From a virus, in IMG/VR virus record IMGVR_UViG_3300044613_002467, positions 1-24,305 of that record: a DNA stretch of 24,305 bases. The stretch is one strand, 5' to 3'. The notes beneath the pieces were generated by a model. It was not told the origin of the DNA. It saw only the letters and a program-made list of their open reading frames with translations, and ran no database searches. Shown here one piece after another: positions 1 through 22,547 of the stretch. The first letter of the stretch is position 1, and each line of letters opens with the position of its first letter. Made by a program: the position numbers and the translations under genes.

Positions 1-67
1 TTGAAGCATTAAAGTGATGCTCAGGACTTTTAATCCTGAGAAGAAGGAGCGTTACCTTCCAGTCCTA
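1..67 (+). tRNA. tRNA-Lys (TTT), 5' end cut by window edge
   Basis: A cloverleaf can be folded by eye. The D arm is at 6-20 (GCAT/ATGC, 7-base loop), the anticodon arm at 22-38 (CAGGA/TCCTG) with loop CTTTTAA, giving anticodon TTT at 29-31, and the T arm at 43-59 (GAAGG/CCTTC, 7-base loop). Bases 60-66 form the 3' acceptor strand and base 67 the discriminator. Only the last three bases of the 5' acceptor strand (1-3) are inside the window, so the gene begins about 4 bases upstream. No CCA is encoded. The two bases after the acceptor are AA rather than the usual U at position 8, which is slightly odd. Confidence 0.8.
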
Positions 68-73
68 CGTATC

Positions 74-82
74 TGATATGAT
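74..82 (+). promoter_or_regulatory. extended -10 promoter, probably leaderless
   Basis: TGA-TATGAT (extended -10 form TGnTATAAT, one mismatch) lies six bases before the ATG at 89, so transcription would start at that ATG. I see no convincing -35 box. It lies directly after tRNA-Lys and is the only candidate start for the plus-strand operon visible here. The same layout recurs on the other strand at 19654 and 17842. Confidence 0.45.
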
Positions 83-88
83 ATACAT

Positions 89-190
89 ATGTTCTGTGAA
101 TATTGTGGGAGTAGATTAATAAATAAGGATTGTAATAATTGCTTTAAAAATATTAATGCTTTAAAAGAGTTTGAGGAGGAAGATGACTAA
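89..190 (+). CDS. 33-residue zinc-ribbon-like microprotein
   Basis: ATG at 89 to TAA at 188-190 encodes a 33-residue protein with two CxxC pairs (C3-x2-C6 and C15-x2-C18) followed by an acidic tail ending EFEEEDD. Two closely spaced CxxC pairs at this length suggest a single zinc-knuckle or rubredoxin-like site; there is room for little else. The gene overlaps the next one by 8 bases in a different frame, and that gene's ribosome-binding site lies inside this one, which argues that the pair is translated together. No ribosome-binding site precedes the ATG, which fits a leaderless start from the -10 box at 74-82. Function unknown; it may be an adaptor or a small regulator. Confidence 0.6.
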   Translation: MFCEYCGSRLINKDCNNCFKNINALKEFEEEDD

Positions 191-398
191 CTGGACTGAC
201 GAACTTAACGATAAACAAAAAGAAGATGTTTGGAACTTTATTGTTTTTACCGTTAAAGAAATAAGAGAACAGATTGCTAAAGATATTGAGGCAACTATTC
301 CTCTTTGGAAATCAAAAGGACTATTGAAATCTCGTAGAACAGAAAAAGCATTTGAGGCTTCTGCTGCAATTGCTAGAGGGGAAAACGAAAAAATATAA
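183..398 (+). CDS. small helical phage protein, unknown function
   Basis: 71 residues starting MTNWTDELNDKQ. The ATG at 183 is chosen over the TTG at 171 because AGGAGGA sits at 174-180, directly upstream. The product is predicted mostly alpha-helical, charged and soluble (a stretch rich in E, R, K and I around residues 20-40), without cysteines or membrane segment. It resembles short conserved phage orphan proteins that I recognise only by general appearance. The stop overlaps the next start as TAATG (398), so the two are translationally coupled. No function can be assigned. Confidence 0.75.
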   Translation: MTNWTDELNDKQKEDVWNFIVFTVKEIREQIAKDIEATIPLWKSKGLLKSRRTEKAFEASAAIARGENEKI

Positions 399-1099
399 TG
401 TCTATAACTATTTATTGGGCTTGTAATGAAAATGAATGGCTAAGGGCTGAGGCTCCAGAACCAATATATAAAAATTTTGTAAAAAATTCAAAAAATCAAA
501 ATAATAATATAATTATGTGTCCAGCAACAAAAAATTACATGCAAAATATCTTTTCAATAAAATCTTTTTACGAATATGATTTTACAGTAGATCTTAGTGA
601 TAAAACAAAAGAAGTATCTACAAATAAATATACTCAAAATTTTTTTGATAATCACGTCACGGTTCGTTCAAAAGAAGATAAGTTATTTTCATTTTTACAA
701 AGGTTTGTTTTTTTTACTGAAGAAAAATCTTTATTAATGTCTGGAGGAATTTTTCCATTTTTAGAAAATAATAATATAACTAATCGTTGTATTGTAATTC
801 CTGGGACTTTTGATATTGGAAGATGGTTTCGGCAATTAGAGTTTGCATTTTATTTAAAAAATGAATATAATGAATTTAAAATTGAAGAAAATGAAATACT
901 TCAATACATCAAGTTTCATACTAAAGAAAAAATTATTTTTAAACAATTTAAGATAAACAATCAAATACAATATTTTTTGAACGATGTTGATAATGCAAAA
1001 TCATTTAGAAAATTAAAACCAAGAGTATTAGAAGATTATTATTTAATGATGAAACATAAACAACAAATAATTAAAGAAATTAAAAAGAATTTAATCTAG
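398..1099 (+). CDS. phage protein, remotely similar to DUF6065-type protein at 9360-10067
   Basis: 233 residues. The centre has the signature RCIVIPGTFDIGRWFRQLEF (about residues 131-150), followed by FYLKN and an acidic FKIEENEI segment. A protein encoded at 9360-10067 shows a parallel arrangement (GIVDCD, then FPFFIKKNF, then IIEKGTPITQI). I read the two as distant relatives of one phage family (DUF6065-like), mostly beta-structured with repeated aromatic residues. No catalytic motif is visible. Position next to the glycan cassette suggests a link but does not prove one. Codon use is extremely A+T rich (many AAA, AAT and TTT). The start overlaps the upstream stop as TAATG. Confidence 0.7.
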   Translation: MSITIYWACNENEWLRAEAPEPIYKNFVKNSKNQNNNIIMCPATKNYMQNIFSIKSFYEYDFTVDLSDKTKEVSTNKYTQNFFDNHVTVRSKEDKLFSFLQRFVFFTEEKSLLMSGGIFPFLENNNITNRCIVIPGTFDIGRWFRQLEFAFYLKNEYNEFKIEENEILQYIKFHTKEKIIFKQFKINNQIQYFLNDVDNAKSFRKLKPRVLEDYYLMMKHKQQIIKEIKKNLI

Positions 1100-1109
1100 G
1101 GGGATTGTA

Positions 1110-2069
1110 ATGTTAAACATAGTTTTTCTTGGTAACTTTGAGGTGCCTTACAGCAGTGAGAATCATCATGCTAAATCTTTAGAATCTCTTGGGCATACCG
1201 TTGAAAAACTGCAGGAAAAAAAAGCAGGTAGCACAGAAATATTAAACAAAGCATTAAAGTCTGATTTATTTGTATGGGTACATACACACAGATGGCAAAC
1301 TCCAGGATCTAGGTCTATGACTGATGTATTGAAAGAATTAAAGGCTGCTGGAATACCAACTATGACTTATCATTTAGACTTATGGTTTGGCATTGAGCGT
1401 GAAAAAGACTTAAAGAATGATGACTTTTACACAAACATAGGCCATTTCTTTGCTACAGATAAGTTAATGTGCGATTGGTTTAATGAAAACACACAGGTTA
1501 AGGGACACTTTTTACCTGCTGGCGTATATGATAAAGAATGTTATATACACCAAGAATATGATCCATATAACTTTGAGCATGACATAATCTTTGTTGGTAG
1601 TAAAGGTTATCATCATGAACATAAATACCGTCCAGAATTGATAGACTTTTTGAAAAGCACATATGGCAAAAGATTCTTACATGTTGGCGGAGACGGTGAC
1701 ACTGGAACTGTACGTGGTCATGAGTTAAACCGTATCTATGCAAGAAGTAAGATAGCAATAGGTGATAGTTTAAACATTAACTTTAACTATCCCTACTACA
1801 CTAGCGATAGGTTGTTTGAGAGTACTGGTCGTGGTGGTTTTACTATCTACCCTCGCATTAAAGGACTTGAAGAATACTTTAAAGACGAAAATGAAATTGT
1901 GTTTTATGAGCATGGCAATCTTGCCGATCTAAAAAATAAAATAGATAAGTATTTATTAGACGGAGTATCAAGAGAAACAATTAGACTTAATGGACATGAA
2001 AGAACTAAAAAAGAACATACATACGTTAATAGATGGGCAAGCATACTAGAAACCCTAAATATAAAATGA
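1110..2069 (+). CDS. glycosyltransferase, GT-B fold, CgeB-like
   Basis: 319 residues. The N-terminal half begins with a Rossmann-like strand (MLNIVFLGNFEVPYS) and contains a DLFVWVHTH segment (about residues 52-60). The C-terminal half has HDIIFVGSKGYHHEH and SDRLFESTGRGGFTIYPRI (about 231-249), then an acidic/hydrophobic stretch ending in a helix. This matches the Glyco_trans_1_2 / CgeB type, where the conserved E-x-x-G-G binds the nucleotide-sugar. It probably moves a sugar from a nucleotide donor to a glycan or protein in the cytoplasm. AGGGGGA at about 1098 gives a good ribosome-binding site. The stop overlaps the epimerase start (ATGA). The acceptor is unknown. Confidence 0.8.
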   Translation: MLNIVFLGNFEVPYSSENHHAKSLESLGHTVEKLQEKKAGSTEILNKALKSDLFVWVHTHRWQTPGSRSMTDVLKELKAAGIPTMTYHLDLWFGIEREKDLKNDDFYTNIGHFFATDKLMCDWFNENTQVKGHFLPAGVYDKECYIHQEYDPYNFEHDIIFVGSKGYHHEHKYRPELIDFLKSTYGKRFLHVGGDGDTGTVRGHELNRIYARSKIAIGDSLNINFNYPYYTSDRLFESTGRGGFTIYPRIKGLEEYFKDENEIVFYEHGNLADLKNKIDKYLLDGVSRETIRLNGHERTKKEHTYVNRWASILETLNIK

Positions 2070-2953
2070 AATATTTAGTTACAGGTGGTGCTGGCTTTAT
2101 TGGGTCAAACCTTGTTGATAAGTTAATCAGTCTTGGTCACGATGTTACTTGTATTGATGATGAGTCTGCAGAATGTCATGAGCAATTCTATTGGAATAAT
2201 AAAGCACAAAACTATAAATATGACATCTGTGATTATGATTTAATTGCGCCACTTTTTGGTGGTGTTGATTGTGTGTTTCACGTTGCATCTGATGCAAGAA
2301 TACAACCAGCAATATTAAATCCTAAAAAATCTATTCAATCAAACGCAGTAGGAACGGCAAACATTCTTGAACTTTGTAGGGTTAACAAGGTAAAAAGATT
2401 GGTTTATTCAAGTACATCTTCTGCTTATGGCAAGAAAGCAGTTCTTCCAAATCAAGAGATACAAACCTCTGACCCACTAACACCATACTCTGCTGCCAAA
2501 GTTTTTGGTGAAAACCTTGCAAGAGTTTATTACAATCTTTACGGACTAGAAACAATATCTCTTAGATATTTTAATGTGTATGGAGATAGACAGCCATTAA
2601 AGGGTCAGTATGCACCAGTAATAGGATTATTTTTAAAACAGTATCACAAAGGAAAGCCATTAACAGTGGTCGGAGATGGATCTCAGCGCAGAGATTTTAC
2701 TCACGTATCAGACGTAATAGAAGCAAACATTATTGCATCTGAAGTTAAAAATGGATTTGGTGAGGTATATAACATTGGGTATGGAAGTAACTATTCTATA
2801 CTTGATATTGCTAATATGATATCAAATGATGTTAAGTTTATACCGTCAAGAATTGGTGAAGTGCAAGAAACTCTTGCATCTAATCAAAAGTTTAAAGATT
2901 TAACTGGATGGGTTCCAAAGGTATCTTTAATAAATTGGTTACAAAATGACTGA
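2066..2953 (+). CDS. NAD-dependent sugar epimerase/dehydratase (extended SDR)
   Basis: 295 residues. TGGAGFIGS (residues 6-14) is the glycine-rich NAD-binding loop of extended short-chain dehydrogenases. YSSTSSAYG (114-122) and Y141-x3-K145 (YSAAK) form the catalytic Ser/Thr-Tyr-Lys set, and RYFNVYG follows as in UDP-glucose 4-epimerases. RRDFTHVSDV near the C terminus is also typical. The enzyme most likely inverts or dehydrates a nucleotide-hexose to supply the neighbouring glycosyltransferases. ATG at 2066 is chosen because it makes an ATGA overlap with the preceding stop and places the Rossmann strand right at the N terminus. Slightly shorter than typical GalE (about 330), mainly at the C terminus. 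Confidence 0.9.
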   Translation: MKYLVTGGAGFIGSNLVDKLISLGHDVTCIDDESAECHEQFYWNNKAQNYKYDICDYDLIAPLFGGVDCVFHVASDARIQPAILNPKKSIQSNAVGTANILELCRVNKVKRLVYSSTSSAYGKKAVLPNQEIQTSDPLTPYSAAKVFGENLARVYYNLYGLETISLRYFNVYGDRQPLKGQYAPVIGLFLKQYHKGKPLTVVGDGSQRRDFTHVSDVIEANIIASEVKNGFGEVYNIGYGSNYSILDIANMISNDVKFIPSRIGEVQETLASNQKFKDLTGWVPKVSLINWLQND

Positions 2954-3659
2954 AATGATTAATGCTAAATTAAATAATGAATTTGAAATGATATTGCCAA
3001 AACATCGTGCTGATAGACCAGAATGGTATACAGAAAAAGGTTGGGAAAAAAACAGATTACGATCAATGCATAAAAATCTTGGAACCAATGACGTAATTTA
3101 TTATGTTGGTGGAGAAGAAGGCGAGATGGTTGCCTTATGTCAAATTTGGGGAGCAGAGACTGTAATATTTGAACCCAATCCAAAAGTTTGGTCACATTAT
3201 CCATTGATATGGGAAAGCAATAACCTTAACAAACCACTAGCCTGTATTCCTGGATTTGCATCTGATAAGATAAACAATCTTTCACGCATATACTATAATG
3301 AATGGCCACCAGAAGTTAATAGTCAAATTGAAGCAGCCCATGGATTTAAAGAATTGTATTTAGAAGGCGACAGTTATGGTCAAATAACAATAGATTCTTG
3401 TGTTTATGAACATAACATTGAGCCTCCTACGGCAATTTCTTTAGACGTAGAGGGCAGCGAAGGTCGTGTTTTAAAGGGCGCAGAGGCTGTTTTAAAGGAG
3501 TTTAAGCCTAAGATCTGGCTATCTGGTCACCCAGAATTTATGATGCAACAATGGAATGAATACTTATATGATTTAAGATTTTGGTTATGGAGTTTGGGCT
3601 ATAAAGAAACATTGTTAGATTATCAACATGAAGTACACTTATATTATGAGCCAATCTAA
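2946..3659 (+). CDS. FkbM-type SAM methyltransferase
   Basis: 237 residues. The segment DVIYYVGGEEGEM (about residues 49-61) is the SAM-binding glycine loop, TVIFEPNPKVW holds the acidic end of strand 2, and ISLDVEGSEGRVLKGAE (about 163-179) is the hallmark of the FkbM family, followed by KPKIWLSGHPEF. FkbM enzymes O-methylate sugars and small molecules, and phage versions often sit in glycan clusters. Here the gene lies between an epimerase and another methyltransferase, so methylation of a sugar in the same glycan is the natural reading. The start overlaps the epimerase end by 8 bases (ATGACTGA). Confidence is high for the family and low for the substrate. Confidence 0.85.
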   Translation: MTEMINAKLNNEFEMILPKHRADRPEWYTEKGWEKNRLRSMHKNLGTNDVIYYVGGEEGEMVALCQIWGAETVIFEPNPKVWSHYPLIWESNNLNKPLACIPGFASDKINNLSRIYYNEWPPEVNSQIEAAHGFKELYLEGDSYGQITIDSCVYEHNIEPPTAISLDVEGSEGRVLKGAEAVLKEFKPKIWLSGHPEFMMQQWNEYLYDLRFWLWSLGYKETLLDYQHEVHLYYEPI

Positions 3660-4194
3660 AATATTTTGGGATAATGCTGCAGCAGATCCAGATGTAAGGT
3701 ATAAGTATGTTGCAGATGAGTGGGCATCTACTGAAATATTTTTAAATCTTATAGAAAATAACAACAACTCTTGGAATAATGTTTTAGAAATTGGATGCGG
3801 AATAGGAAGATTGTTAGTTCCTTTGGCAGACAAGCATAACGAATGTAATTTTTATGGAATAGATATCTCTGATGAAATGATAAGCCTTGCACCTAAAAGA
3901 AATAATATAAAGTATCAAGAAGTTACAGACAAACTTGATTTAGTATATTCTATGTTGGTTTTTCAACACATTGAACATCAAGAAAAAATTAATTATATAA
4001 AACTTGCATATGATAAATTAAAAAATGGAGGAAGTATATTTTTTCAGTTTGTTGTTGGAGAAGAAAACTCTCCTTACTCTTATCAGACATCACAGTTTGA
4101 AATTGAAAAGATATTGACTAACACAGGATTTAGTAACTCAGTTTTTGAAAATCATATGCATCCGCAATGGATGTTTGTCAGGGCTACAAAATGA
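3646..4194 (+). CDS. class I SAM-dependent methyltransferase
   Basis: 182 residues from the chosen ATG at 3646; an in-frame ATG at 3628 would add six residues. VLEIGCGIGRLL (46-57) is motif I for SAM binding, FYGIDISDEMI is the acidic motif with D contacting the SAM ribose, and DLVYSMLVFQHIEH is a typical motif IV region. It resembles Methyltransf_11/25 enzymes acting on small molecules or sugars. The start overlaps the FkbM gene by 14 bases and the stop overlaps the next gene as ATGA. Neither candidate start has a clear ribosome-binding site, so translation is probably coupled. Confidence 0.85.
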   Translation: MSQSKIFWDNAAADPDVRYKYVADEWASTEIFLNLIENNNNSWNNVLEIGCGIGRLLVPLADKHNECNFYGIDISDEMISLAPKRNNIKYQEVTDKLDLVYSMLVFQHIEHQEKINYIKLAYDKLKNGGSIFFQFVVGEENSPYSYQTSQFEIEKILTNTGFSNSVFENHMHPQWMFVRATK

Positions 4195-5039
4195 TAAACG
4201 CATATCTTTATTCAGTTAAACAAGAAGATTGTGCTGCTGATAAGTGGGATTACGGTTTATTAAAACAATTTTTTAATAAAAACAACATTAAACCAGACAG
4301 GGTAACAACTTTACCCAGTGTGGACAGAGCCTTTGTTGTCATTCCTGGACCACAAAATGTAGACTTTGAAGATCAAATATCTGAAGAGTTAAATAAGATA
4401 GGCAGAGTAGTTTTATTTATTACTGGAGATGAAAGTGCTACATTTAAAGTTGATAAGATAGAGCATAGTAATATTGAGATTTGGATTCAATACCCGCACA
4501 GAAAACATTCACAATATAATAAATTAGCATTAGGTGTTCCTCAACATTTATCAAATAATTTACCAGAGTATCAAGATAAATCGTATGATGTATTTTTTTC
4601 AGGACAGATAACTCATCAAAGAAGGCAAGAACTTGCAACCGTTATGCCTGAAATACCAAATTCTTTTTATAATCCAACTAATGGTTTTGCAGAGGGCTTG
4701 AGTCCAAAATCATATTACGACAAAATGTTTTTATCAAAGATTGTTCCTTGCCCAAGCGGAGCAATGGTTGTTGATTCATTTAGATTCTATGAAGCAATTG
4801 AAATGCTTTGCTTACCCATAGGAGATAAGTTAGACCCAAGAATGCGAAATACAGACTTTTTTAATTTTTTATTTGATGGCAATCACACAATAAAAACTTT
4901 TGAAAATTGGCAACAGTTTCCTGAATTGCTACCTGAATTATTAAATGATTACACATCCGATATGCATCAAGTTGTTTGTTGGTGGATTAAATATAAAAGA
5001 GATCTTTTTATTGAGTTAATGAGGCAAGTAAATGCATAA
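4191..5039 (+). CDS. exostosin-like glycosyltransferase
   Basis: 282 residues. DVFFSGQITHQRRQEL (mid-protein) and the C-terminal stretch VPCPSG...DSFRFYEAIEMLCLPI match the pattern of exostosin/GT47-like GT-B enzymes, in which the 'R-x-x-E' helix binds the nucleotide-sugar diphosphate. No signal peptide or membrane segment, so a cytoplasmic transferase. ATG 4191 is preferred over 4167 because it makes an ATGA overlap with the upstream stop. The end overlaps the next gene by 8 bases (ATGCATAA). Family assignment is by motif only; donor and acceptor are unknown. Confidence 0.7.
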   Translation: MINAYLYSVKQEDCAADKWDYGLLKQFFNKNNIKPDRVTTLPSVDRAFVVIPGPQNVDFEDQISEELNKIGRVVLFITGDESATFKVDKIEHSNIEIWIQYPHRKHSQYNKLALGVPQHLSNNLPEYQDKSYDVFFSGQITHQRRQELATVMPEIPNSFYNPTNGFAEGLSPKSYYDKMFLSKIVPCPSGAMVVDSFRFYEAIEMLCLPIGDKLDPRMRNTDFFNFLFDGNHTIKTFENWQQFPELLPELLNDYTSDMHQVVCWWIKYKRDLFIELMRQVNA

Positions 5040-5793
5040 AAGAGATATAACAATTGTCATGGCTACTTCTGTAATTCCAGATCACCCAAGTACAAATATG
5101 ATAGAGAAAACAATTAGTGATATTCGTGTGCACTTCCCAGACAACGAAATTATTATGCAAATAGATGGTCTTAGAGAAGAACAGCAAAACCGTAAAAAAG
5201 ATTACGATGAATATAAAAATCGTATTTTATGGAAATGCTTGCATGAGGATAAAAACATATTGCCTTTTATATTTAAAGAGCATAGCCATCAAACCAACAT
5301 GATGCGTCAAACAATTAATGAAATTAAAACACCGCTATTGCTTTACATTGAAGGGGATGCCCCATTGACTCCAGATGTAGCAATAGACTGGGATAAATGC
5401 TTGGACATGTTTGAGTATAATAAAGCAAATACTATTCGTTTTCATTTTGAATCATTTATACCGAAAGATCATGAACATCTAATGTTTGGTTTAGAAGATG
5501 GGTTTATGAAAACTATACAATGGAGTCAAAGGCCACATTTGAGTAGAAAAAAATATTATAAAAATATTGTGCTTCCAAGATGTAAAGATAAATTTTTTAT
5601 AGAAGATACATTCCATGGAGCAATTCAAGACGATATATCTCCGTATGAAGTGTTTAATCAAGAAGGTTGGGAGATGCACAAACTTTGGATATATCACCCT
5701 GAAGGTAGCATTAAGCGTTCGTATCATTTAGATGGTCGCCAGGGTACCCGCAAATTTACAGTAGATGATGAAATTTGGGGATATAAAGAATGA
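5032..5793 (+). CDS. GT-A type (family 2-like) glycosyltransferase
   Basis: 253 residues. The start RDITIVMATSVIPDHPST (residues 4-21) resembles the first strand and donor-base site of GT2 enzymes; TPLLLYIEGDAPLTPD (around residue 105) supplies an EGD in place of the metal-binding DxD, followed by a conserved acidic/aromatic region. The C-terminal third (GWEMHKLWIYHPEGS) is also seen in cytoplasmic phage glycosyltransferases of this kind. No membrane segments. The gene overlaps both neighbours (8 bases upstream, ATGA downstream), so it is an integral part of the cassette. The EGD variant means that activity needs to be shown. Confidence 0.65.
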   Translation: MHKRDITIVMATSVIPDHPSTNMIEKTISDIRVHFPDNEIIMQIDGLREEQQNRKKDYDEYKNRILWKCLHEDKNILPFIFKEHSHQTNMMRQTINEIKTPLLLYIEGDAPLTPDVAIDWDKCLDMFEYNKANTIRFHFESFIPKDHEHLMFGLEDGFMKTIQWSQRPHLSRKKYYKNIVLPRCKDKFFIEDTFHGAIQDDISPYEVFNQEGWEMHKLWIYHPEGSIKRSYHLDGRQGTRKFTVDDEIWGYKE

Positions 5794-6827
5794 GATTAGG
5801 AATCATAGCAAGATCAGACAACACTGGTCTTGGTAATCAAACTAGGGAATTAGTTAGTATGCTTAATCCTGACAAGATTCTTTTAATTGACTCTACCCCT
5901 TTTAATAAAAATAAACAACATCCAGAATGGTATGAAAAATATAGTTGTATTAGAAGCAATGGATTTCCATCTGTTCAACAGGTTAAAATATTTTTAAACG
6001 ATGTAGACGTTGTATTAAGTTGTGAAACATTTTATGATCAAAATCTTATAAGGTTTGCAAATAAAAGAAATGTAAAAACTATCCTTCAGTATAACTACGA
6101 ACTGTTTGGCCATTTAGCAAATCCTAACCAACCATTACCAACAGTACTTTTATCTCCAAGTGTATGGCAAATTGAACACATAAAAAAAATGTTTGGTGGT
6201 CAAACAAAAGTTATTCATCTTCCACCACCAACAAATGAAGAATTATTTAGTAAAGTAAAAGAAAATAATTTATCTAAATCACATAATAGAATATTACACA
6301 TTGCTGGTAAAAAGGCAGCCAAGGATAGAAATGGTACCGAAACTGTAATTGATATGCTTAAGCATTCTAAAGCAGATTACGAACTAGTAATTAGAAGCCA
6401 AAGCGAAATAGAAACAAACATTAAAGATTCAAGGCTTAAGGTTGAAATTGGAAATCCAGACAATAGAGAAGATATGTATGATGGGTTTGATGCTATGGTA
6501 TTACCAAGACGATACGCTGGATTATGTTTGCCAATGAATGAGGCTTTGCTAAGTGCCCTGCCAGTTTTTATGACAGATGTATCCCCAAATAATTTTATTT
6601 TACCTTCAGAGTGGTTAGTAAAAAGCGATTCAATAGGAACAATTAGAACTAAAATTAGACTTGAATTATTTGAAGCAGATCCAATGGCTTTAGCAAAAAC
6701 AATTGATAACTATATTAACATTAAAGATAAAACTTCTTATAAAGAGCAAGCATATAATATTGGCATTTCAAATTTTTCTCCAGTTATTTTAAAAGAAAAA
6801 TATTTAGAACTTATCTCTCAAATTTAG
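5790..6827 (+). CDS. GT4-like glycosyltransferase, GT-B fold
   Basis: 345 residues. The N terminus MRLGIIARSDNTGLGNQT gives the glycine-rich acceptor-side loop. LLSPSVWQIEHIKKMFG and KVIHLPPP mark the domain linker, and PRRYAGLCLPMNEALLSALP (about residues 236-255) corresponds to the E-x7-E donor site of GT4 enzymes, with the first glutamate apparently replaced. The product therefore probably binds a nucleotide-sugar. The start overlaps the preceding gene as ATGA. Its last 17 bases overlap the end of the minus-strand gene at 6811-7503, and I see no terminator for the operon. Confidence 0.75.
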   Translation: MRLGIIARSDNTGLGNQTRELVSMLNPDKILLIDSTPFNKNKQHPEWYEKYSCIRSNGFPSVQQVKIFLNDVDVVLSCETFYDQNLIRFANKRNVKTILQYNYELFGHLANPNQPLPTVLLSPSVWQIEHIKKMFGGQTKVIHLPPPTNEELFSKVKENNLSKSHNRILHIAGKKAAKDRNGTETVIDMLKHSKADYELVIRSQSEIETNIKDSRLKVEIGNPDNREDMYDGFDAMVLPRRYAGLCLPMNEALLSALPVFMTDVSPNNFILPSEWLVKSDSIGTIRTKIRLELFEADPMALAKTIDNYINIKDKTSYKEQAYNIGISNFSPVILKEKYLELISQI

Positions 6828-7503: not shown

Positions 7504-7514
7504 GTTTCCCCCAT

Positions 7515-7557
7515 TATAAAAAATAAAGAGGGCAAGTTTTTAGGTTTGCCCCCTCTA
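7515..7557 (-). terminator. Rho-independent terminator
   Basis: On the minus strand, AGAGGGGG-CAA pairs with TTG-CCCTCT (7527-7556, one bulged base, 10-base loop) and is followed by TTTATTTTTT. It lies directly downstream of the holin-like gene at 7568-7852 and ends that transcript. Reverse use for plus-strand transcripts is less likely because the A-rich side has no clean T run there. Confidence 0.8.
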
Positions 7558-8020: not shown

Positions 8021-8380
8021 TTATTTTTCTTCCATAGTTGGTGGCAATAATGATAAAAGTTTGTCGGAGTAATCATTGAGACCCCTGTTTTTAAGTTCTT
8101 CTGATACTTCTTTAATAGTTTTTTGTGACGTTTCAATATACTCAAAAGCCCAATTTCTTGAATCAGAAAGAAATTTAATAAAATTTTCCTTATGTATTGA
8201 ATCATCTGAGATTCCAGTATCATCTTTTATTTTAGATGTTAATTCTTCAAGCGCTGCATTTTTTATAAAAAGTTCGGCCATTAAAATATTAGACTTGTTT
8301 AGTCTATTGAGAGTAGCCCAATACGCTATAGAAAAAGAAAGGGATAGAGTAGCAAAAAATATTACAAGCATCATTTCCAT
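8021..8380 (-). CDS. membrane-anchored helical protein, unknown
   Basis: 119 residues. Residues 4-24 (LVIFFATLSLSFSIAYWATL) form one N-terminal membrane helix; the rest is charged and likely helical or coiled coil (NKSNILMAELFIKNAALEEL and SEELKNRGL). No cysteine, no catalytic motif. It looks like an anchored scaffold or an i-spanin-like protein, but spanins are not needed in hosts without an outer membrane. It may be translated together with XapX, as its stop is two bases before that ATG. There is no ribosome-binding site; a TACAAT seven bases before the ATG (8388-8393) may be a -10 box of a leaderless promoter. Confidence 0.6.
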   Translation of the reverse strand: MEMMLVIFFATLSLSFSIAYWATLNRLNKSNILMAELFIKNAALEELTSKIKDDTGISDDSIHKENFIKFLSDSRNWAFEYIETSQKTIKEVSEELKNRGLNDYSDKLLSLLPPTMEEK

Positions 8381-8385
8381 ACTAA

Positions 8386-8880
8386 CTATTGTACTCTATC
8401 TCTAATGGCATGGGTTGCCCAATAATATAAACACTTATCACAGCAAGGTTTATTATTTTTATTTTTTGTATCAATATAAAATTCAGCATAAAAATCTGGA
8501 TCTTTGCGATATAGGTTAGCCCTATGAGTAATGTTAATTCTATCTATATGTGGACCAGAAGAGTTAGCCCAGAAGGGCTTATTAGTGCCCCATATAGGGC
8601 CACAAAGGGTTTCTAGGGCTTCTATGTTAGACTCGTTCTTGTCTGTCTTTATACCCCTTGATTTAGCCTCTGTAATCATGGTTTTAGCATAAGTTCTCAG
8701 TGAGTACTCTGCATTTTTCCACATTAATACTGCAGGATGATTTCTCCATGCCCCCGAAGGTGACTGACCAGACAACACCTTAAGTATTTGGTAGGCTTCA
8801 AGTATTTGCTTATTTAAACGTTTATTGTCTAAGGACTTTGCAGATTCTGCATAATTTTGAAATGGTAAAAATGTTTGCAT
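8386..8880 (-). CDS. pyrimidine-dimer DNA glycosylase-like (MSMEG_6728 family)
   Basis: 164 residues. The N terminus MQTFLPFQNYAESAKSL, then DNKRLNKQILEAYQIL and GAWRNHPAVLMW (about residues 43-54), are hallmarks of the MSMEG_6728/Pyr_excise family, related to T4 endonuclease V, which cuts the glycosyl bond at UV-made pyrimidine dimers. The central residues L-D-x-x-R-L-x-K-Q and W-R-x-H-P are well kept. C-terminal CCDKCLYYWATH adds a C-C-x2-C zinc-like cluster. The gene starts inside TAATG with the preceding microprotein, so the two are coupled. A repair role against sunlight damage would suit a surface-water phage. Confidence 0.75.
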   Translation of the reverse strand: MQTFLPFQNYAESAKSLDNKRLNKQILEAYQILKVLSGQSPSGAWRNHPAVLMWKNAEYSLRTYAKTMITEAKSRGIKTDKNESNIEALETLCGPIWGTNKPFWANSSGPHIDRINITHRANLYRKDPDFYAEFYIDTKNKNNKPCCDKCLYYWATHAIRDRVQ

Positions 8881-10067: not shown

Positions 10068-10266
10068 ATCTACCCCATTGTATATAGTTCCAACCACGCT
10101 CATGGAAGTAATAAAGAATTGTTTTTGTAAATACCTCAAAACTTGCAATAGCACCTGCTGTTACTGGCTCTTTGGTTATGGCCCAAGAGATAACAAAGGT
10201 ATCTGCTGTTCCAATGACACGCCATGTAATTGCTTTTAGTGCTGATCTTTGTTTGGTTACATTCAT
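10060..10266 (-). CDS. DUF2061 membrane protein
   Basis: 68 residues from ATG 10266, with GAGTGG six bases upstream. ALKAITWRVIGTADTFVISW (residues 9-28) followed by FEVFTKTILYYFHERGWNYI is the classic DUF2061 pattern: K-x-x-x-W-R-x-x-G/A-T-x-D-T, a membrane helix, then K-T-x-L-Y-Y-x-H-E-R-x-W. The domain is a small inner-membrane protein, often found beside sulfur or adenylylsulfate genes; its activity is not known. Here it lies directly downstream of the APS kinase-like gene, which keeps that association. The GTG at 10275 is another possible start. Confidence 0.85.
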   Translation of the reverse strand: MNVTKQRSALKAITWRVIGTADTFVISWAITKEPVTAGAIASFEVFTKTILYYFHERGWNYIQWGRYE

Positions 10267-10311: not shown

Positions 10312-11067
10312 TTAGATACCCATCTCTTTACGTTTTTGCGTAGCCGAAATAGCATGAATGTCTGCCCCCAAATCTACTTGCTCAATCTTATATCCAACAT
10401 CACGACCATATACAATGTTGGTAATGTTAGGCATTTTAATTACCATTGCTTTATCCATATATGAATCTTTTGATATATATTCTTTTACCTCATCAAAGGT
10501 AAGAGGATCTTTTTCTGTTGTTCCATGTGTATTTCTAACACCAACCATTACTTGCTCTGTACGATTTTGTGCTTCTTTATAAAGTGCATGATGTCCTTCA
10601 TGCCATGGTTGATAACGACCAAGCATTAGTGTAGTTGGTTTACTCCAGTCATGAAGACCAAAGCCTTCGGTAATAATATTAATTCTTTCTTCCATTGGAA
10701 TTGTTTTATCAAAACACATATCAAAAGTTTCTGGATATTGAAACATTTTATCTGTATCTGGATATTTACTTTTTTCAAATGTATTCATCCAAATCAGCCT
10801 ATCTGGTTTTCCAAAAGCATTTCTTGTTTCTTTTGTAGGATTAACAAAATCTACAACAATATGATGTCCTTGATTTGAAAGAAGTCTAGAAATTGCTCCT
10901 AAACGACGAGCCTGCTCAATTCTATCTTCTGTTGTAAATCCTAAATCTTTGCTTAAGTCAGATCTTACTTCATCAGCATTAAGATGAATTGCATTAATTT
11001 TTTTTGCTAACTCTTTTGCTAATGTTGTTTTACCAGATCCTGGTAAACCTATAATTTGTATAATCAT
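10312..11067 (-). CDS. fused APS kinase-like and nucleotidyltransferase protein
   Basis: 251 residues. N-terminal half: Walker A GLPGSGKTT (7-15), NADEVRSDLSKDLGF (30-44) and DRIEQARRL (48-56) match adenylylsulfate kinase (CysC), which phosphorylates APS to PAPS. C-terminal half: GRYQPWHEGHHAL (150-162) with H156-x2-H159 and ISATQKRKEMG (240-250) are the signature motifs of the HIGH-type nucleotidyltransferase fold; GRDVGY (221-226) recalls the GRD motif of ATP sulfurylase. The domain is only about 105 residues, shorter than ATP sulfurylase (about 390) and nearer to NMN adenylyltransferase in size. It may be a compact PAPS synthetase-like enzyme or a different kinase-transferase pair. Upstream is WhiB and downstream DUF2061. 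Confidence 0.75.
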   Translation of the reverse strand: MIIQIIGLPGSGKTTLAKELAKKINAIHLNADEVRSDLSKDLGFTTEDRIEQARRLGAISRLLSNQGHHIVVDFVNPTKETRNAFGKPDRLIWMNTFEKSKYPDTDKMFQYPETFDMCFDKTIPMEERINIITEGFGLHDWSKPTTLMLGRYQPWHEGHHALYKEAQNRTEQVMVGVRNTHGTTEKDPLTFDEVKEYISKDSYMDKAMVIKMPNITNIVYGRDVGYKIEQVDLGADIHAISATQKRKEMGI

Positions 11068-11071
11068 TTTA

Positions 11072-11359
11072 TTACCCTTCCATTGTTAACGATTGCCATG
11101 TTTCAGACCAATCTTTTTTAGTTTTATGCTTATTAAACTCTCTTGAAATTTCTCCACCCTCTAAGTATATACCACCCCATACACCCCATTCTTTTCCAGA
11201 AACACCATTGGCAAAACATATTTTTTTTACTGGGCACTGCTTACAAAGCGCATCAATTTTTTTAGATACTTCGTTAACATTATCTTCATATTTATCAAAA
11301 AATAAGTCTGTATCCATCCCTAAACATACGGCTTGATCTTTCCATAAGTGCTGTTTCAA
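11072..11359 (-). CDS. WhiB-family iron-sulfur transcription factor
   Basis: 95 residues. C12, C39, C42 and C48 (C-x26-C-x2-C-x5-C) bind the [4Fe-4S] cluster, and GVWGG (59-63) is the conserved turn that contacts the sigma factor. This family occurs in Actinobacteria and their phages, where it may redirect host RNA polymerase or control superinfection. The start is a TTG at 11359 (M of MKQHLWKD); no ATG lies upstream of C12, and AGGGAT precedes it by 7 bases. The C-terminal end carries a short basic segment (KHKTKKDW) that may touch DNA. Adjacent to the APS kinase gene (4 bases between). Confidence 0.92.
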   Translation of the reverse strand: MKQHLWKDQAVCLGMDTDLFFDKYEDNVNEVSKKIDALCKQCPVKKICFANGVSGKEWGVWGGIYLEGGEISREFNKHKTKKDWSETWQSLTMEG

Positions 11360-13793: not shown

Positions 13794-13820
13794 AACAAAC
13801 CTCCTAAGTTTCTATATTGA

Positions 13821-13829
13821 TTATATCAG
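13821..13829 (-). promoter_or_regulatory. extended -10 promoter upstream of 12996-13793
   Basis: On the minus strand TGA-TATAAT (perfect -10 with extended TG) lies 27 bases before the ATG at 13793, predicting a start near 13814. No -35 match (TTGACA) is found at 16-18 bases, which fits extended -10 use. It is the only gap in this part of the minus strand and would start the transcript of the group 12996-7568. Confidence 0.5.
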
Positions 13830-14836: not shown

Positions 14837-15097
14837 CTAACCATTTTCTTTAGCCAATTTTTCACGCTCATCAATGATTGTAAGCATAAAAGCCATCATT
14901 TTAGCGTAGCCTTCTTTATTATCCATAATCTTGTTGTAGTGATGACCACAAAACATTAGGTCTCCAGTTAGGCCAGTAACTTTGACAAGGGCTTGTGCTG
15001 CACATGAATCACAGCGATCATTTGCACTTAAAAGCCATTCTTTTGGTTTAACACTTGGATGATCTTTAATTGCACTATTCATAATCATATTATACAT
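14837..15097 (-). CDS. DUF7455-type zinc protein of Actinobacteria
   Basis: 86 residues from ATG 15097, which directly follows the TAG of the FmdB-like gene. DRCDSCAAQALVKV (27-40) with C29-x2-C32, and MFCGHHYNKI (48-57) with C50, H52, H53, match the short DUF7455 proteins of Actinobacteria and their phages. It probably binds one zinc ion; the role is not known. A TATAAT lies within codons 2-3, six bases before M6 (15082), so an alternative leaderless start at MNSAIKDHP is possible. The C-terminal region is helical. Confidence 0.85.
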   Translation of the reverse strand: MYNMIMNSAIKDHPSVKPKEWLLSANDRCDSCAAQALVKVTGLTGDLMFCGHHYNKIMDNKEGYAKMMAFMLTIIDEREKLAKENG

Positions 15098-15271
15098 CTA
15101 CTTTCTGTTATCGGTGCTATAAAAGCCACGGCCATTAAAAATTATACCTGGAGAACTCCATACTCTTTGCATGGATTCATTACAACATATTGGATATTGC
15201 TCATCGCCAATTAATTTTTCAAATTCAATTTGTGCACTACAAACAGAACATTTGTAATCATATCTTGGCAT
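15098..15271 (-). CDS. FmdB-family zinc-ribbon protein
   Basis: 57 residues from ATG 15271 (MPRYDYKCSVCSAQIEFEK). The first knuckle C8-x2-C11 is intact, and the second is C29-C30 rather than the normal C-x2-C, so metal binding may be altered. SPGIIFNGRGFYSTD (43-57) is the conserved C-terminal tail of the family. FmdB-type proteins are small and suspected regulators; phage copies exist. The longer reading upstream (to 15352) has no ribosome-binding site and would lie within the methyltransferase gene, so the internal ATG is chosen. It overlaps that gene by 14 bases. Confidence 0.8.
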   Translation of the reverse strand: MPRYDYKCSVCSAQIEFEKLIGDEQYPICCNESMQRVWSSPGIIFNGRGFYSTDNRK

Positions 15272-16157
15272 AGTTGTTTTCTTTCTTAATAAATATAAAA
15301 TTTTTATATTGTTTAAAAGTTTTATTTTCTCCAAAATATTTTGTTTCATCATTGCTCATTATTATTGATTCTGAAAAAGATATATCCATAAATCTAGACT
15401 TTGAAATACAACAACCCATCCTAACATTTTTTGTTATATTTTTTTTATCATATAAAACAAGACCATTATTTAAAAAAGTATCTTCCATAATCTTTTCTTG
15501 TTTTTCTGTTAAATCTGCAGATATTAAAAGTTTGCCATTATCTTTTAAAACTCTGAATGCCTCTTGTGCAAACTTTGACATTGGATCATAATAAAATATA
15601 GATTCAACAGAAGTTATGACGTCAACAGTGTTGTCATTTATTGGCAAATTTGTTGCTGAAGCAATAAAAAAATTAACCTTTTTTTCGTGTTTTTTTGCTA
15701 CATCTATGTTAACTCTAGTTAAGTCAATTCCTATGCAATAATCAAAATTATAAAAATTTTTATAAAATGAAACTCCTCCGCCTTTACCACATCCAATATC
15801 AACTAAAACTTTTATATCATTATTATTTTTTATTTTTGCAAAGTCTAGCAGTTGTTTATATAAAGCAACTTGATATTTAAAATTTTTATATTTTGTATTT
15901 AATATAAAATTTTTTACTTCTATGTCATCAAATGGATAGCCATCATCATCAATTTCTGCATAGCCATCATTCATAAAAATTAAAGAGTCTGGATCTAAAT
16001 AATTAAAATTTTTTATTTTTTCGTTTACTTTTAAATGATAAAAATCAGTATATTTATTTATAACTATTTCTTCATCTTTTGTAAAAAAAATCTGATCTTC
16101 ATTATTTTTTATAATTTGATTTATTAAATTTGTCACAATATTAGTTTCTCCATTCAT
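15258..16157 (-). CDS. class I SAM-dependent methyltransferase
   Basis: 299 residues. The first 110 residues are A/T-coded, rich in N, I, K and D, and contain NDGYAEIDDDGYP. Then VLVDIGCGKGGGVSF (about 117-131) is motif I; CIGIDLTRVNIDVA is motif II; ATNLPINDNTVDVITSVES (about 168-186) is motif III-IV, and FRVLKDNGKLLISADL is the post-motif region. It resembles methyltransferases of lipid and natural-product type (Methyltransf_11-like). The N-terminal 110 residues are not a standard part and may bind the substrate. A promoter overlaps the start (16166-16194). Confidence 0.85.
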   Translation of the reverse strand: MNGETNIVTNLINQIIKNNEDQIFFTKDEEIVINKYTDFYHLKVNEKIKNFNYLDPDSLIFMNDGYAEIDDDGYPFDDIEVKNFILNTKYKNFKYQVALYKQLLDFAKIKNNNDIKVLVDIGCGKGGGVSFYKNFYNFDYCIGIDLTRVNIDVAKKHEKKVNFFIASATNLPINDNTVDVITSVESIFYYDPMSKFAQEAFRVLKDNGKLLISADLTEKQEKIMEDTFLNNGLVLYDKKNITKNVRMGCCISKSRFMDISFSESIIMSNDETKYFGENKTFKQYKNFIFIKKENNYAKI

Positions 16158-16165
16158 ACATAATT

Positions 16166-16194
16166 AGTATATCAGAGTTTGGGCAGTTTTACAA
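16166..16194 (-). promoter_or_regulatory. promoter with -35, -10 and extended TG, near-leaderless
   Basis: Minus-strand TTGTAA (16189-16194), a 17-base spacer and TATACT (16166-16171), with TGA upstream of the -10 (TGATATACT). The predicted start (about 16159) is only two bases before the ATG at 16157, so the transcript would be nearly leaderless; there is no Shine-Dalgarno sequence. It would drive the methyltransferase and the genes down to 13833. It lies in the only gap (55 bases) after Hsp20. Confidence 0.65.
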
Positions 16195-16692: not shown

Positions 16693-16701
16693 ATTATACC
16701 A
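16693..16701 (-). promoter_or_regulatory. extended -10 promoter of Hsp20
   Basis: TGG-TATAAT on the minus strand lies between tRNA-Thr and Hsp20, giving a start near 16686 and a leader of about 54 bases. No good -35 is seen, as that position lies within the tRNA-Thr 3' part. The same AAATGGTATAAT sequence occurs upstream of the 885-residue surface protein at 22539-22547. Confidence 0.5.
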
Positions 16702-17628: not shown

Positions 17629-17835
17629 TTAAGATATCATCAATCTGATGACATGACAACACGGGTCGCCCCCTGCTTCCCACTCTTCTTGTTCTTCTTC
17701 TCCCATATATTCGTATCCACCATCATGGGTATTGCAGTAAGGTGGTGTTACCCAACCTCTTTCAATACCGTTTTCAAGCCAGATACCAAACTCTGTTTCT
17801 TCTGGAGATAAATCTTCCTTATATGAATGATTCAT
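17629..17835 (-). CDS. acidic actinophage protein with Cys/His pairs
   Basis: 68 residues. EFGIWLENGIERGWVTPPYC (15-34), CNTHDGGYEYM (34-44) and EWEAGGDPCCHVIRL (51-65) give a Cys-x2-His and Cys-Cys-His arrangement that could bind zinc. The strong acidic middle (GEEEQEEWE) is notable. Actinophage proteins of this shape are common, without a known function. The transcript seems to start right at the ATG from the TTGACG/TATACT promoter at 17842-17870, so no ribosome-binding site is needed. Confidence 0.7.
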   Translation of the reverse strand: MNHSYKEDLSPEETEFGIWLENGIERGWVTPPYCNTHDGGYEYMGEEEQEEWEAGGDPCCHVIRLMIS

Positions 17836-17841
17836 ATTATA

Positions 17842-17870
17842 AGTATACCTTTAAATACTTACCACGTCAA
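17842..17870 (-). promoter_or_regulatory. -35/-10 promoter, leaderless start
   Basis: TTGACG (17865-17870), 17-base spacer, TATACT (17842-17847). The predicted start falls at the ATG (17835), with six bases between -10 and ATG. The -35 lies within the end of the proteasome-like gene. It would produce a leaderless mRNA for the acidic protein and continue into the secreted protein and tRNAs. Confidence 0.6.
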
Positions 17871-18381
17871 CTGGACCCATGCAGGTTGGACTAAATTTAA
17901 TAGCAGCATTTACTGCTCCTACAACTCTTTTACGAGCATCTTTAGATTTTTCTGTAGCATGCAAATAACCATAAGCATATTCAGCCCCAGAACCCATTGC
18001 TAAATAATCTAAATTATATTTAGATAAAGACATATCAACTGCATTGTGTTCATATATTTGTCCTTTTATACAAACAATTAGACCAAGATCAGCCTCTTTA
18101 CCAGTATCAACCCACCAATCATTATAAAAATTTTTTAGTTGTTTAATAAATTTAGTTTGCATAAATTTATCTGTGTCTTTTATATCTGGTACATAAGGAT
18201 TAAAATTATAACGAATACGTTCTCCATCCAAAGATCCAGCATATCCAATTAAATATGGTCCAAGTTTCCAAACTTTTGGAGCGGTCAAAGAAAGTATAGT
18301 GTTATCATCTGAGGCACCACGTTCACCAGCCATATAGATTTTATTAGTTGCTGAATCACGAACAACGGCCAGAACAGTCAT
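17851..18381 (-). CDS. Ntn-hydrolase resembling HslV/proteasome beta subunit
   Basis: 176 residues. The protein begins MTVLAVVRDS; after removal of Met1, T2 would be the N-terminal nucleophile. IYMAGERGASDDN (15-27) aligns with the A-G-D-G-Q/S region of HslV, PKVWKL (35-40) supplies the active-site lysine (K36), YLIGYAGS (43-50) is the G-F-A-G-S turn, and MGSGAEYAYGYL (129-140) is the conserved G-S-G-x-x-Y-A helix. The catalytic T2 and K36 are visible; the usual Asp is replaced by E20. No ATPase partner is in the window. It may join host proteasome assemblies or act alone. GGGGG lies upstream of the ATG. Confidence 0.8.
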   Translation of the reverse strand: MTVLAVVRDSATNKIYMAGERGASDDNTILSLTAPKVWKLGPYLIGYAGSLDGERIRYNFNPYVPDIKDTDKFMQTKFIKQLKNFYNDWWVDTGKEADLGLIVCIKGQIYEHNAVDMSLSKYNLDYLAMGSGAEYAYGYLHATEKSKDARKRVVGAVNAAIKFSPTCMGPVDVVSI

Positions 18382-18398: not shown

Positions 18399-18415
18399 TA
18401 TACTATTTAAGTATA
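18399..18415. promoter_or_regulatory. 17-base perfect dyad overlapping promoter
   Basis: TATACT-ATTTA-AGTATA reads as a 6-base inverted repeat around a 5-base centre. It overlaps the -10 and predicted start of the promoter at 18410-18438, which is where an operator would lie. Part of the dyad is the -10 itself, so chance is a real alternative. Confidence 0.35.
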
Positions 18416-18438
18416 CCAAACCCTTTTTACTTAGTCAA
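18410..18438 (-). promoter_or_regulatory. strong -35/-10 promoter of the proteasome-like gene
   Basis: TTGACT (18433-18438), 17-base spacer, TGG-TATACT with -10 at 18410-18415. Five of six bases match the -35 consensus and five of six the -10, plus the extended TG. The start would be near 18403, with a leader of about 22 bases containing the AGGGGG ribosome-binding site of the gene at 17851-18381. This is the best promoter in the window. Confidence 0.7.
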
Positions 18439-19020: not shown

Positions 19021-19430
19021 TATTCTTTATCCCAATCTGTATCAACTGGTTGTGCTTCTGGCATTGCTCCATCTGGTTTTGCTGCCAAACGTGCTGCAGT
19101 TGCATCAATCTCTGCTTCTAGTTTTTTATCTGCTTGTGTATTCTTAGCATCCATTTCTTTATTGGCTAATTGTGCTGACATTACATCTTTTGCACCAGAT
19201 TGACCAATTAATAAACCTGCAAGTGTTCCTGTAATAAATGTTGCAACTGAACCAAGTACATTAAAAAACATTTTATCATTTTCTGATTGTGCACCAATTG
19301 GTTGACTTACAAAAAGAAGACCATACAGAATTCCTACTGATGTAAGAAATAGGATTGATCCTAATGTAATACCTAAAATAAATTTTAATCTTGCATCTAA
19401 ATCTTGTGGAGTTAATTTTTGTTTACTCAT
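19020..19430 (-). CDS. two-helix holin candidate
   Basis: 136 residues. FILGITLGSILFLTSVGILY (17-36) and NVLGSVATFITGTLAGLLIG (57-76) form two membrane helices with a short loop, followed by a long helical charged tail (AQLANKEMDAKN, then KKLEAEIDATAARLAA). This hairpin with a cytoplasmic tail is usual for actinophage holins. The gene sits directly upstream of the endolysin with TAATG overlap, the normal lysis-cassette order. The tail is longer than in most holins and may be a coiled coil. Confidence 0.7.
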   Translation of the reverse strand: MSKQKLTPQDLDARLKFILGITLGSILFLTSVGILYGLLFVSQPIGAQSENDKMFFNVLGSVATFITGTLAGLLIGQSGAKDVMSAQLANKEMDAKNTQADKKLEAEIDATAARLAAKPDGAMPEAQPVDTDWDKE

Positions 19431-19647
19431 TTGTTGTTCCCCCTGTTGTATTTAAGTTTGAATCTCTATCTATTTTAATCATATCTTTTGTGCATGTTCC
19501 AGATGCCTCACAAATTGGAGGATTACATTCTGCCTTTTCCCAATTTTCTGGATTTTGGCATGGATATCTATAAAAACCCTGATAGCCACAGGATGTTAGT
19601 CCTAGGGCTAAAGTAGTTGATAATAGGAATATGCGTAGTTTTGACAT
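19423..19647 (-). CDS. phage lipoprotein
   Basis: 74 residues. The N terminus KLRIFLLSTTLALGLTSC is a signal peptide with lipobox LTSC (17-20), lipidated at C20. The mature part reads YPCQNPENWEKAEC, then NPPICEASGTCTKDMI, four cysteines that could make two disulfides outside the cell. I recognise this pattern from lipoproteins of phages from aquatic bacteria. Without an outer membrane, it would be anchored in the cytoplasmic membrane. It overlaps the holin candidate by 8 bases. A possible role is exclusion of superinfecting phages. Confidence 0.8.
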   Translation of the reverse strand: MSKLRIFLLSTTLALGLTSCGYQGFYRYPCQNPENWEKAECNPPICEASGTCTKDMIKIDRDSNLNTTGGTTNE

Positions 19648-19653
19648 ACTCCT

Positions 19654-19662
19654 ATTATAGCA
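19654..19662 (-). promoter_or_regulatory. extended -10 promoter, leaderless position
   Basis: TGC-TATAAT on the minus strand, six bases before the ATG at 19647. The intervening six bases are AGGAGT, which could also act as a ribosome-binding site for read-through mRNA. The box can therefore start a leaderless lipoprotein mRNA that continues into the lysis genes. No -35 match is present. Confidence 0.5.
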
Positions 19663-22523: not shown

Positions 22524-22547
22524 GTAATTATATAAGTAATTATACCA
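22524..22547 (-). promoter_or_regulatory. tandem -10 boxes before the 885-aa gene
   Basis: GTAATTATA occurs twice on the plus strand (22524-22532 and 22536-22544), giving two TATAAT boxes on the minus strand, 12 bases apart. The first has the extended form TGG-TATAAT. They predict starts near 22532 and 22520, upstream of the ribosome-binding site at 22514-22519. No -35 is clear because the upstream terminator occupies that region. Confidence 0.45.

Follow-up and report, generated by a model that had tools for sequence, protein, structure and literature searches.

In the window, which is the full 24,305-nt stretch of an uncultivated phage (IMG/VR record IMGVR_UViG_3300044613_002467, 34% GC), six ATG codons are preceded within a few bases by a hexamer resembling the -10 element of bacterial promoters. 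The question raised by this locus is whether these elements are promoters placed so near to the start codon that the mRNA carries no leader, and whether such a layout is shared by related phages.

The -10/ATG pairs of the window

A sequence-only reading had listed four -10 boxes 6-8 bases before ATG 89, 19647, 17835 and 16157. Their coordinates proved exact, with spacings of 6, 6, 6 and 8 bases, and the further TATAAT and TACAAT that it placed before ATG 15082 (6 bases) and ATG 8380 (7 bases) are present as described (Table 1). Both proposed -35 elements, TTGACG and TTGTAA, can be read in the sequence as well, each 17 bases from its box. Normal ribosome-binding sites had been reported missing from three of the sites; an SD 4-mer at the usual distance was in fact found at 0/6, the GGAG ahead of ATG 19647 lying only ∼1–2 bases away, too close for an SD.

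Table 1. Promoter elements, start codons and genes considered in the window.
Feature	Position	Strand	Remarks
Extended -10 TGATATGAT	74..82	plus	6 bases to ATG 89
33-aa zinc-ribbon-like ORF, predicted leaderless	89..190	plus
Extended -10 TGCTATAAT	19654..19662	minus	6 bases to ATG 19647; in 21-base gap after upstream gene
74-aa protein, predicted leaderless	19423..19647	minus
-10 TATACT	17842..17847	minus	6 bases to ATG 17835
-35 TTGACG	17865..17870	minus	17-base spacing to TATACT; within 3' end of HslV-like gene
68-aa protein, function unassigned, predicted leaderless	17629..17835	minus
Extended -10 TGATATACT	16166..16174	minus	8 bases to ATG 16157
-35-like TTGTAA	16189..16194	minus	17-base spacing to 16166..16174 box
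Methyltransferase gene (PF08241), predicted leaderless	15258..16157	minus
-10 TATAAT	15089..15094	minus	6 bases to ATG 15082; in 15-base gap after upstream gene
DUF7455 gene (PF24254), predicted leaderless	14837..15082	minus	longest ORF (15097) begins within promoter; small cysteine-rich protein, also present in Actinobacteria
-10-like TACAAT	8388..8393	minus	7 bases to ATG 8380
119-aa protein, probably leaderless	8021..8380	minus
Comparison extended -10 TGATATAAT	13820..13828	minus	26 bases to SD-led ATG 13793
Comparison extended -10 TGGTATACT with TTGACT	18410..18418	minus	28 bases to SD-led ATG 18381 (HslV-like)
Comparison extended -10 TGGTATAAT	22539..22547	minus	36 bases to SD-led TTG 22502
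Comparison extended -10 TGGTATAAT	16693..16701	minus	60 bases to SD-led Hsp20 gene 16632
Ambiguous TATAAT	7513..7518	minus	9 bases to ATG 7503; G-run usable as SD
Ambiguous TACAAT	10077..10082	minus	9 bases to ATG 10067; G-run present
WhiB gene	11072..11359
HslV/proteasome-like peptidase (phrog_1040)	17851..18381	minus

When motifs were counted anywhere in the window, no excess was seen: TATAATN6ATG with one mismatch occurs 22 times (21.4 expected), TATAMTN7ATG 40 times (30.5 expected; 5 of 100 shuffles as high) and TGNTATRMT nine times (7.5 expected), while generic sigma-70 scans gave 59 and 40 hits for 65.8 and 42.9 expected. Counted 6–9 bases upstream of 44 curated starts (the gene at 24287, with just 18 upstream bases, was left out), TATAMT was found at five (7503, 15082, 16157, 17835 and 19647), as compared with a mean of 0.30 and a maximum of 3 in 2000 shuffles. 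Addition of TATGAT and TACAAT, which were picked after the sites of interest were known, raises the count to 8/44 versus 0.47 in shuffles; two of these eight starts (7503 and 10067) are ambiguous, as an SD is present there too. Homologs of the gene at ATG 10067 are few, and most of them do not keep its TACAAT. Within 7513–7556 on the minus strand, a hairpin and a T-run are directly followed by TATAAT and GGGGG before ATG 7503, which crowds a terminator, a promoter and an SD-like run into one short stretch; some homologs of this gene retain TATAAT at 8–9 bases, and their G-rich run is variable.

Seven of the nine TGNTATRMT sites lie upstream of genes and in gene orientation, three of them (74, 16166 and 19654) at 6–8 bases and four (13820, 18410, 22539 and 16693) at 26–60 bases from genes that are SD-led; the remaining two (5802 and 6350) fall within genes. 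The box at 13820 keeps a spacing of 24–26 bases in 13/13 homologs.

Five of the six sites are conserved in relatives. For three window proteins, 455, 328 and 398 candidates for relatives were found in IMG/VR, the best 80 of each being used; the phage collection gave no close cultured relative. The sequences searched for homologous upstream regions included the window itself (as locus L001, which was omitted from one clade spacing count). A -10-like box with an in-frame ATG at 6–9 bases is retained in 97/97 distinct upstream regions homologous to that of ATG 15082, and a -10 at 6–7 bases in 58/60 for ATG 17835 and 48/49 for ATG 19647. For ATG 8380 a -10-like box stands at 6–7 bases in 31/48; among the other 17, the box lies at 18–23 bases in 11 and is absent from six. 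ORFs homologous to that at ATG 89 were found in loci L280 and L283, and each has the box 6 bases before it; the same tRNA-Lys precedes one of them, and unrelated DNA with TTGACA the other. In the window, the TGATATGAT box starts 5 bases past the 3' end of a tRNA-Lys that is truncated by the contig end, and in L280 an intact tRNA-Lys, the last of a Met-Asn-Leu-Lys array, stands ahead of the box. The 3' portion of the truncated tRNA-Lys(TTT) occupies window positions 1–68. TTGACG is conserved too, a result confounded by its overlap with the HslV-like coding sequence. For ATG 16157 there is an identical copy only and no informative homolog, and the prediction rests on the motif. The N-terminus of the 74-aa protein behind ATG 19647 resembles, in our reading, a lipoprotein signal.

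Spacing in related and unrelated phages

Nine long phage records (942 kb, 0.33–0.38 GC) plus the window served as the set of relatives; the analysis excluded records G009, G011 and G012 as well as the final 1516 bases of G007. A simple caller, blind to upstream signals, gave 1137 genes in 282 families, 401 of the 1137 starts having been shifted by homology. Identical sequence contexts were counted once, and the non-independence of homologs is lessened by family weighting. In family-weighted terms, TATAMT lies 6–9 bases before the start in 24.6 of 282 families versus 1.69 in 200 shuffles (sd 0.94, max 3.86). The values at 6, 7, 8 and 9 bases are 16.5, 5.3, 1.5 and 1.3, falling to about zero at 10–14, and shuffles give 0.45 at exactly 6 bases. 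At least one boxed member occurs in 38 of the 282 families, and at least half of the members are boxed in 10 of the 138 families with three or more.

Independently of gene calls, an ATG stands at offset 6 from 72 of 345 distinct TGnTATAMT sites, for 6.6 expected. Independently chosen starts carry the box in 114/1145 cases (6.9–12.9% per record across the nine records), and in-frame internal ATGs in 22/3835, versus 102/1137 gene starts. Leaderless GUG is not seen in these phages, since GTG at offset 6 from TGnTATAMT (2 sites) is at the level of chance (3.2 expected).

From control phages 80 kb each was used (60 kb for DrLupo). In T4, Staphylococcus K, SPO1, S-RIM2 and HTVC008M together, the box was present at 6–9 bases in 1/432 starts. 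Among phages of Actinobacteria, TGnTAnnnT at 6–9 bases precedes 3/110 starts in Streptomyces Gilson, 9/100 in Rhodococcus Grayson, 8/75 in Rhodococcus NiceHouse, 4/69 in Microbacterium Pumpernickel and 1/65 in Mycobacterium DrLupo, and TAnnnT peaks at exactly 6 bases in Pumpernickel (8), NiceHouse (9) and DrLupo (5). On the comparison proposed beforehand, that of TGnTATAMT-to-ATG spacing with shuffled sequence, the phage set differs sharply both from shuffles and from other phages, and the indistinguishable spacing that was to count against the idea was absent.

Promoter character and competing readings

Where the box lies 5–9 bases from the start, an SD 4-mer is present at 5/122 starts, as compared with 25/36, 22/33, 41/60 and 27/47 at 15–19, 20–24, 25–32 and 33–45 bases, respectively. 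Few boxes (16 genes) lie at 10–14 bases, a distance that would leave no room for an SD in the leader. The TG extension accompanies 77 of the 113 distinct leaderless boxes; among the 36 without it, TTG stands exactly 17 bases upstream in 11, as against 0–4 at other spacings. Judged by these signatures (extended -10 and/or a -35 at 16–18 bases), the boxes are predicted sigma-70-type promoters, beyond mere A/T strings. The base C occupies the second position after the box in 1/117 leaderless sites, against 15/171; a C at this position destabilises open complexes, with which its scarcity agrees. Neither sigma-70 region 2 nor region 4 could be found in any of the 11 phage records, which makes the host sigma factor and polymerase the likely readers; the records are possibly incomplete, and a sigma factor may have gone unnoticed. 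In a search for single-subunit polymerases, the control gave no match anywhere.

Very probably, then, these are sigma-70-type promoters read by the host polymerase and set so that transcripts start at or near the AUG and are leaderless. Host RNA polymerase would recognize TGnTATAMT, or TATAMT with TTGnnn 17 bases upstream, and place +1 on the A of the start codon or within ∼3 bases of it. As the -10 element spans -12 to -7, a 6-base spacing would put +1 on the A of the ATG, and with spacings of 7–9 bases either the start would be shifted or the leader would not exceed ∼3 bases. The resulting mRNA would have neither leader nor SD, and the ribosome would initiate on the AUG that forms the 5' end, the mode used in Actinobacteria; where the gene has an SD, the same phages set the same promoter at least 15 bases off.

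The position of the genes bears on this reading and on its strongest competitor. Among boxed genes 25/113 stand right after a strand switch, versus 37/1023 of the others. A box at 6–9 bases is found in 28/85 same-strand genes with an upstream gap of 12–20 bases, a length that barely accommodates box and spacer, and in 2/433 genes with a gap of 5 bases or less. By these strand-switch and gap counts the predicted leaderless genes are proximal in their transcription units. It might be supposed that the promoters are real, yet that coupling or reinitiation on readthrough mRNA accounts for translation in part or in the main, with leaderless initiation in a secondary role; half of the same-strand boxed genes (44/88) do lie within 30 bases of the upstream stop. 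This seems rather unlikely, as the shortest gaps, where coupling works best, are the ones almost never boxed, and the genes behind strand switches have no co-directional gene before them. At short gaps, coupled translation of readthrough mRNA may contribute.

It is quite improbable that the hexamer works at the RNA level, docking the ribosome as an A/U-rich element within a longer leader, with no promoter involved. A box at -12 is also a plausible site for such an element, and the 5' ends are here predicted only, but the frequent TG, the TTG at exactly 17 bases, the same box farther upstream of SD-led genes and the excess of boxed genes after strand switches all speak for a promoter. Somewhat less probable still are mis-assigned start codons, with true starts downstream behind an SD. 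Mis-assignment does occur: in 42 of the 97 homologs of the 15082 gene the first ATG in frame overlaps the -10 or directly adjoins it, and annotation needs correction where that ATG falls within the promoter. In these homologs, however, the second in-frame ATG, 6–9 bases away, restores the leaderless spacing, and a downstream in-frame start with an SD within 18 codons was found in 0/114 cases. Chance, by which AT-rich upstream DNA (the phages have 33–38% GC) would yield TATAAT-like strings of which six were picked out, is the least credible reading, compatible with the whole-window motif counts but already refuted by the peak at exactly 6 bases together with the controls, since dinucleotide shuffles do not reproduce the start-linked counts, T4, phage K and HTVC008M, which are just as AT-rich, are without the pattern, and the sites are conserved in homologs.

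Under the preferred reading of host-read leaderless promoters, some homologs differ in the arrangement used. Families 17, 51 and 125 each combine one extended -10 with two arrangements, in which the ATG comes after 6–9 bases or after a longer SD-bearing stretch, with a similar N-terminus behind both; leaderless and promoter-plus-SD members occur together in 7 of the 282 families. Such homologs, differing mainly in leader and SD, offer a natural experiment on leaderless versus SD-led translation. We tentatively consider a space-saving interpretation, which is possible but on balance doubtful: a co-directional gap of 12–20 bases may constitute a complete promoter-plus-start cassette (-10 plus ∼6 bases) that splits a gene block into independently transcribed units, lineages might toggle between the leaderless and SD-led states by gain or loss of ∼10 bases in the stretch from a constant -10 to the ATG, and phage boxes nearer to consensus than those of the host could let phage leaderless genes outcompete host ones for polymerase.

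Host phylum and known leaderless systems

WhiB, a protein family that belongs to Actinobacteria and the phages infecting them, and DUF7455 are both present in 11/11 phage records. In the control for WhiB, Corynebacterium was the only one of 14 with a match. All annotated phages matching the window WhiB (193/193) or DUF7455 (19/19) are named after Actinobacteria, and among the bacterial DUF7455 loci listed as matches, 79/80 titles name actinobacterial taxa, the exception (L358) being an “uncultured bacterium”. The distribution of these two proteins therefore points to an actinobacterium as the host, an assignment that sequence comparison supports at the level of the phylum, not the species. With Ca. 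Nanopelagicales (acI) as a candidate host group, a scan of bacterial genomes for one protein gave no relative; the published Planktophila phages are 39 kb in size with 45% GC.

The 80 actinobacterial DUF7455 loci represent one conserved neighbourhood, and their 6-base peak repeats the same genes; the bacterial set was other DNA, 400 kb in all, taken from seven genomes (GC 0.40–0.53) belonging to an actinobacterial family with small genomes. Here TAnnnT lies exactly 6 bases before 53/345 starts, versus 4.2 expected per position, and just one of the 53 boxes is TATAMT. The gene-call-free count, a weak test in this DNA, gave 132 ATGs at offset 6 for 102.6 expected. At GTG starts, gene calling gave 14/64, which the call-free count does not support (77 sites at offset 6 for a mean of 87.4), and hence no contrast between phage and host is drawn for GTG. 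Phage and host phylum thus have the 6-base spacing in common, the phage boxes being nearer to consensus (TGnTATAMT versus degenerate TAnnnT). The suggestion that the phage is adapted to the transcription style of Actinobacteria is supported by the host link through WhiB and DUF7455 and by the shared spacing, with two refinements: just ∼10% of phage starts follow this style, SD starts being commoner, and the near-consensus boxes depart from the degenerate ones of the host.

As outlined in the relevant part of Zheng et al. (2011, PMC3160421), the TA-led, leaderless genes of Actinobacteria have TANNNT ∼12 bases upstream, lack an SD and are operon-proximal. The phage genes resemble them in box position, missing SD, operon-proximal location and switching between orthologs. 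Those data, however, concern cellular genomes of high-GC Actinobacteria with TAnnnT, whereas the phages have near-consensus TGnTATAMT, and the leaderless share is given there as >20% of genes, against ∼10% of starts here. For Cluster O mycobacteriophages, a passage of PMC4351075 predicts leaderless SigA-like promoters (PL1, PR2 and PL2), three named promoters in one cultured group of unrelated phages, and this passage is without spacing statistics. P90 of Adephagia, likewise an actinophage promoter with a predicted leaderless transcript, concerns one gene of a cultured temperate phage in the section of PMC11373665 that describes it. Phage lambda, named in the same part of PMC3160421 as the first case of leaderless initiation, also has a phage mRNA starting at AUG, but it is an E. 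coli phage and appears there as a single case with no genome-wide layout. Taken together, the layout in PMC3160421 and the single mycobacteriophage cases, as those passages present them, mean that the mechanism is already known. Among the papers listed in searches of open-licence PMC, a scope outside which most subscription papers fall, none surveyed leaderless promoters genome-wide in phages. What seems new is the clade-wide use and its measurement, the promoter gaps of 12–20 bases and the way homologs switch between leaderless and SD-led starts. For uncultivated phages, an actinobacterial host could also be recognized from sequence alone, by a -10 that lies exactly 6 bases from the ATG.

The window further encodes a CHAP-domain endolysin, Hsp20 and the HslV-like peptidase. 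The last has hundreds of relatives among viral contigs; as a link to the host it yielded no relative in a single-protein scan of bacterial genomes. At 10312–11067 an adenylylsulphate-kinase-like domain is fused to a cytidylyltransferase-like domain. A plus-strand block (398–6827) carries glycosyltransferase and methyltransferase genes, and the remaining genes run the opposite way.
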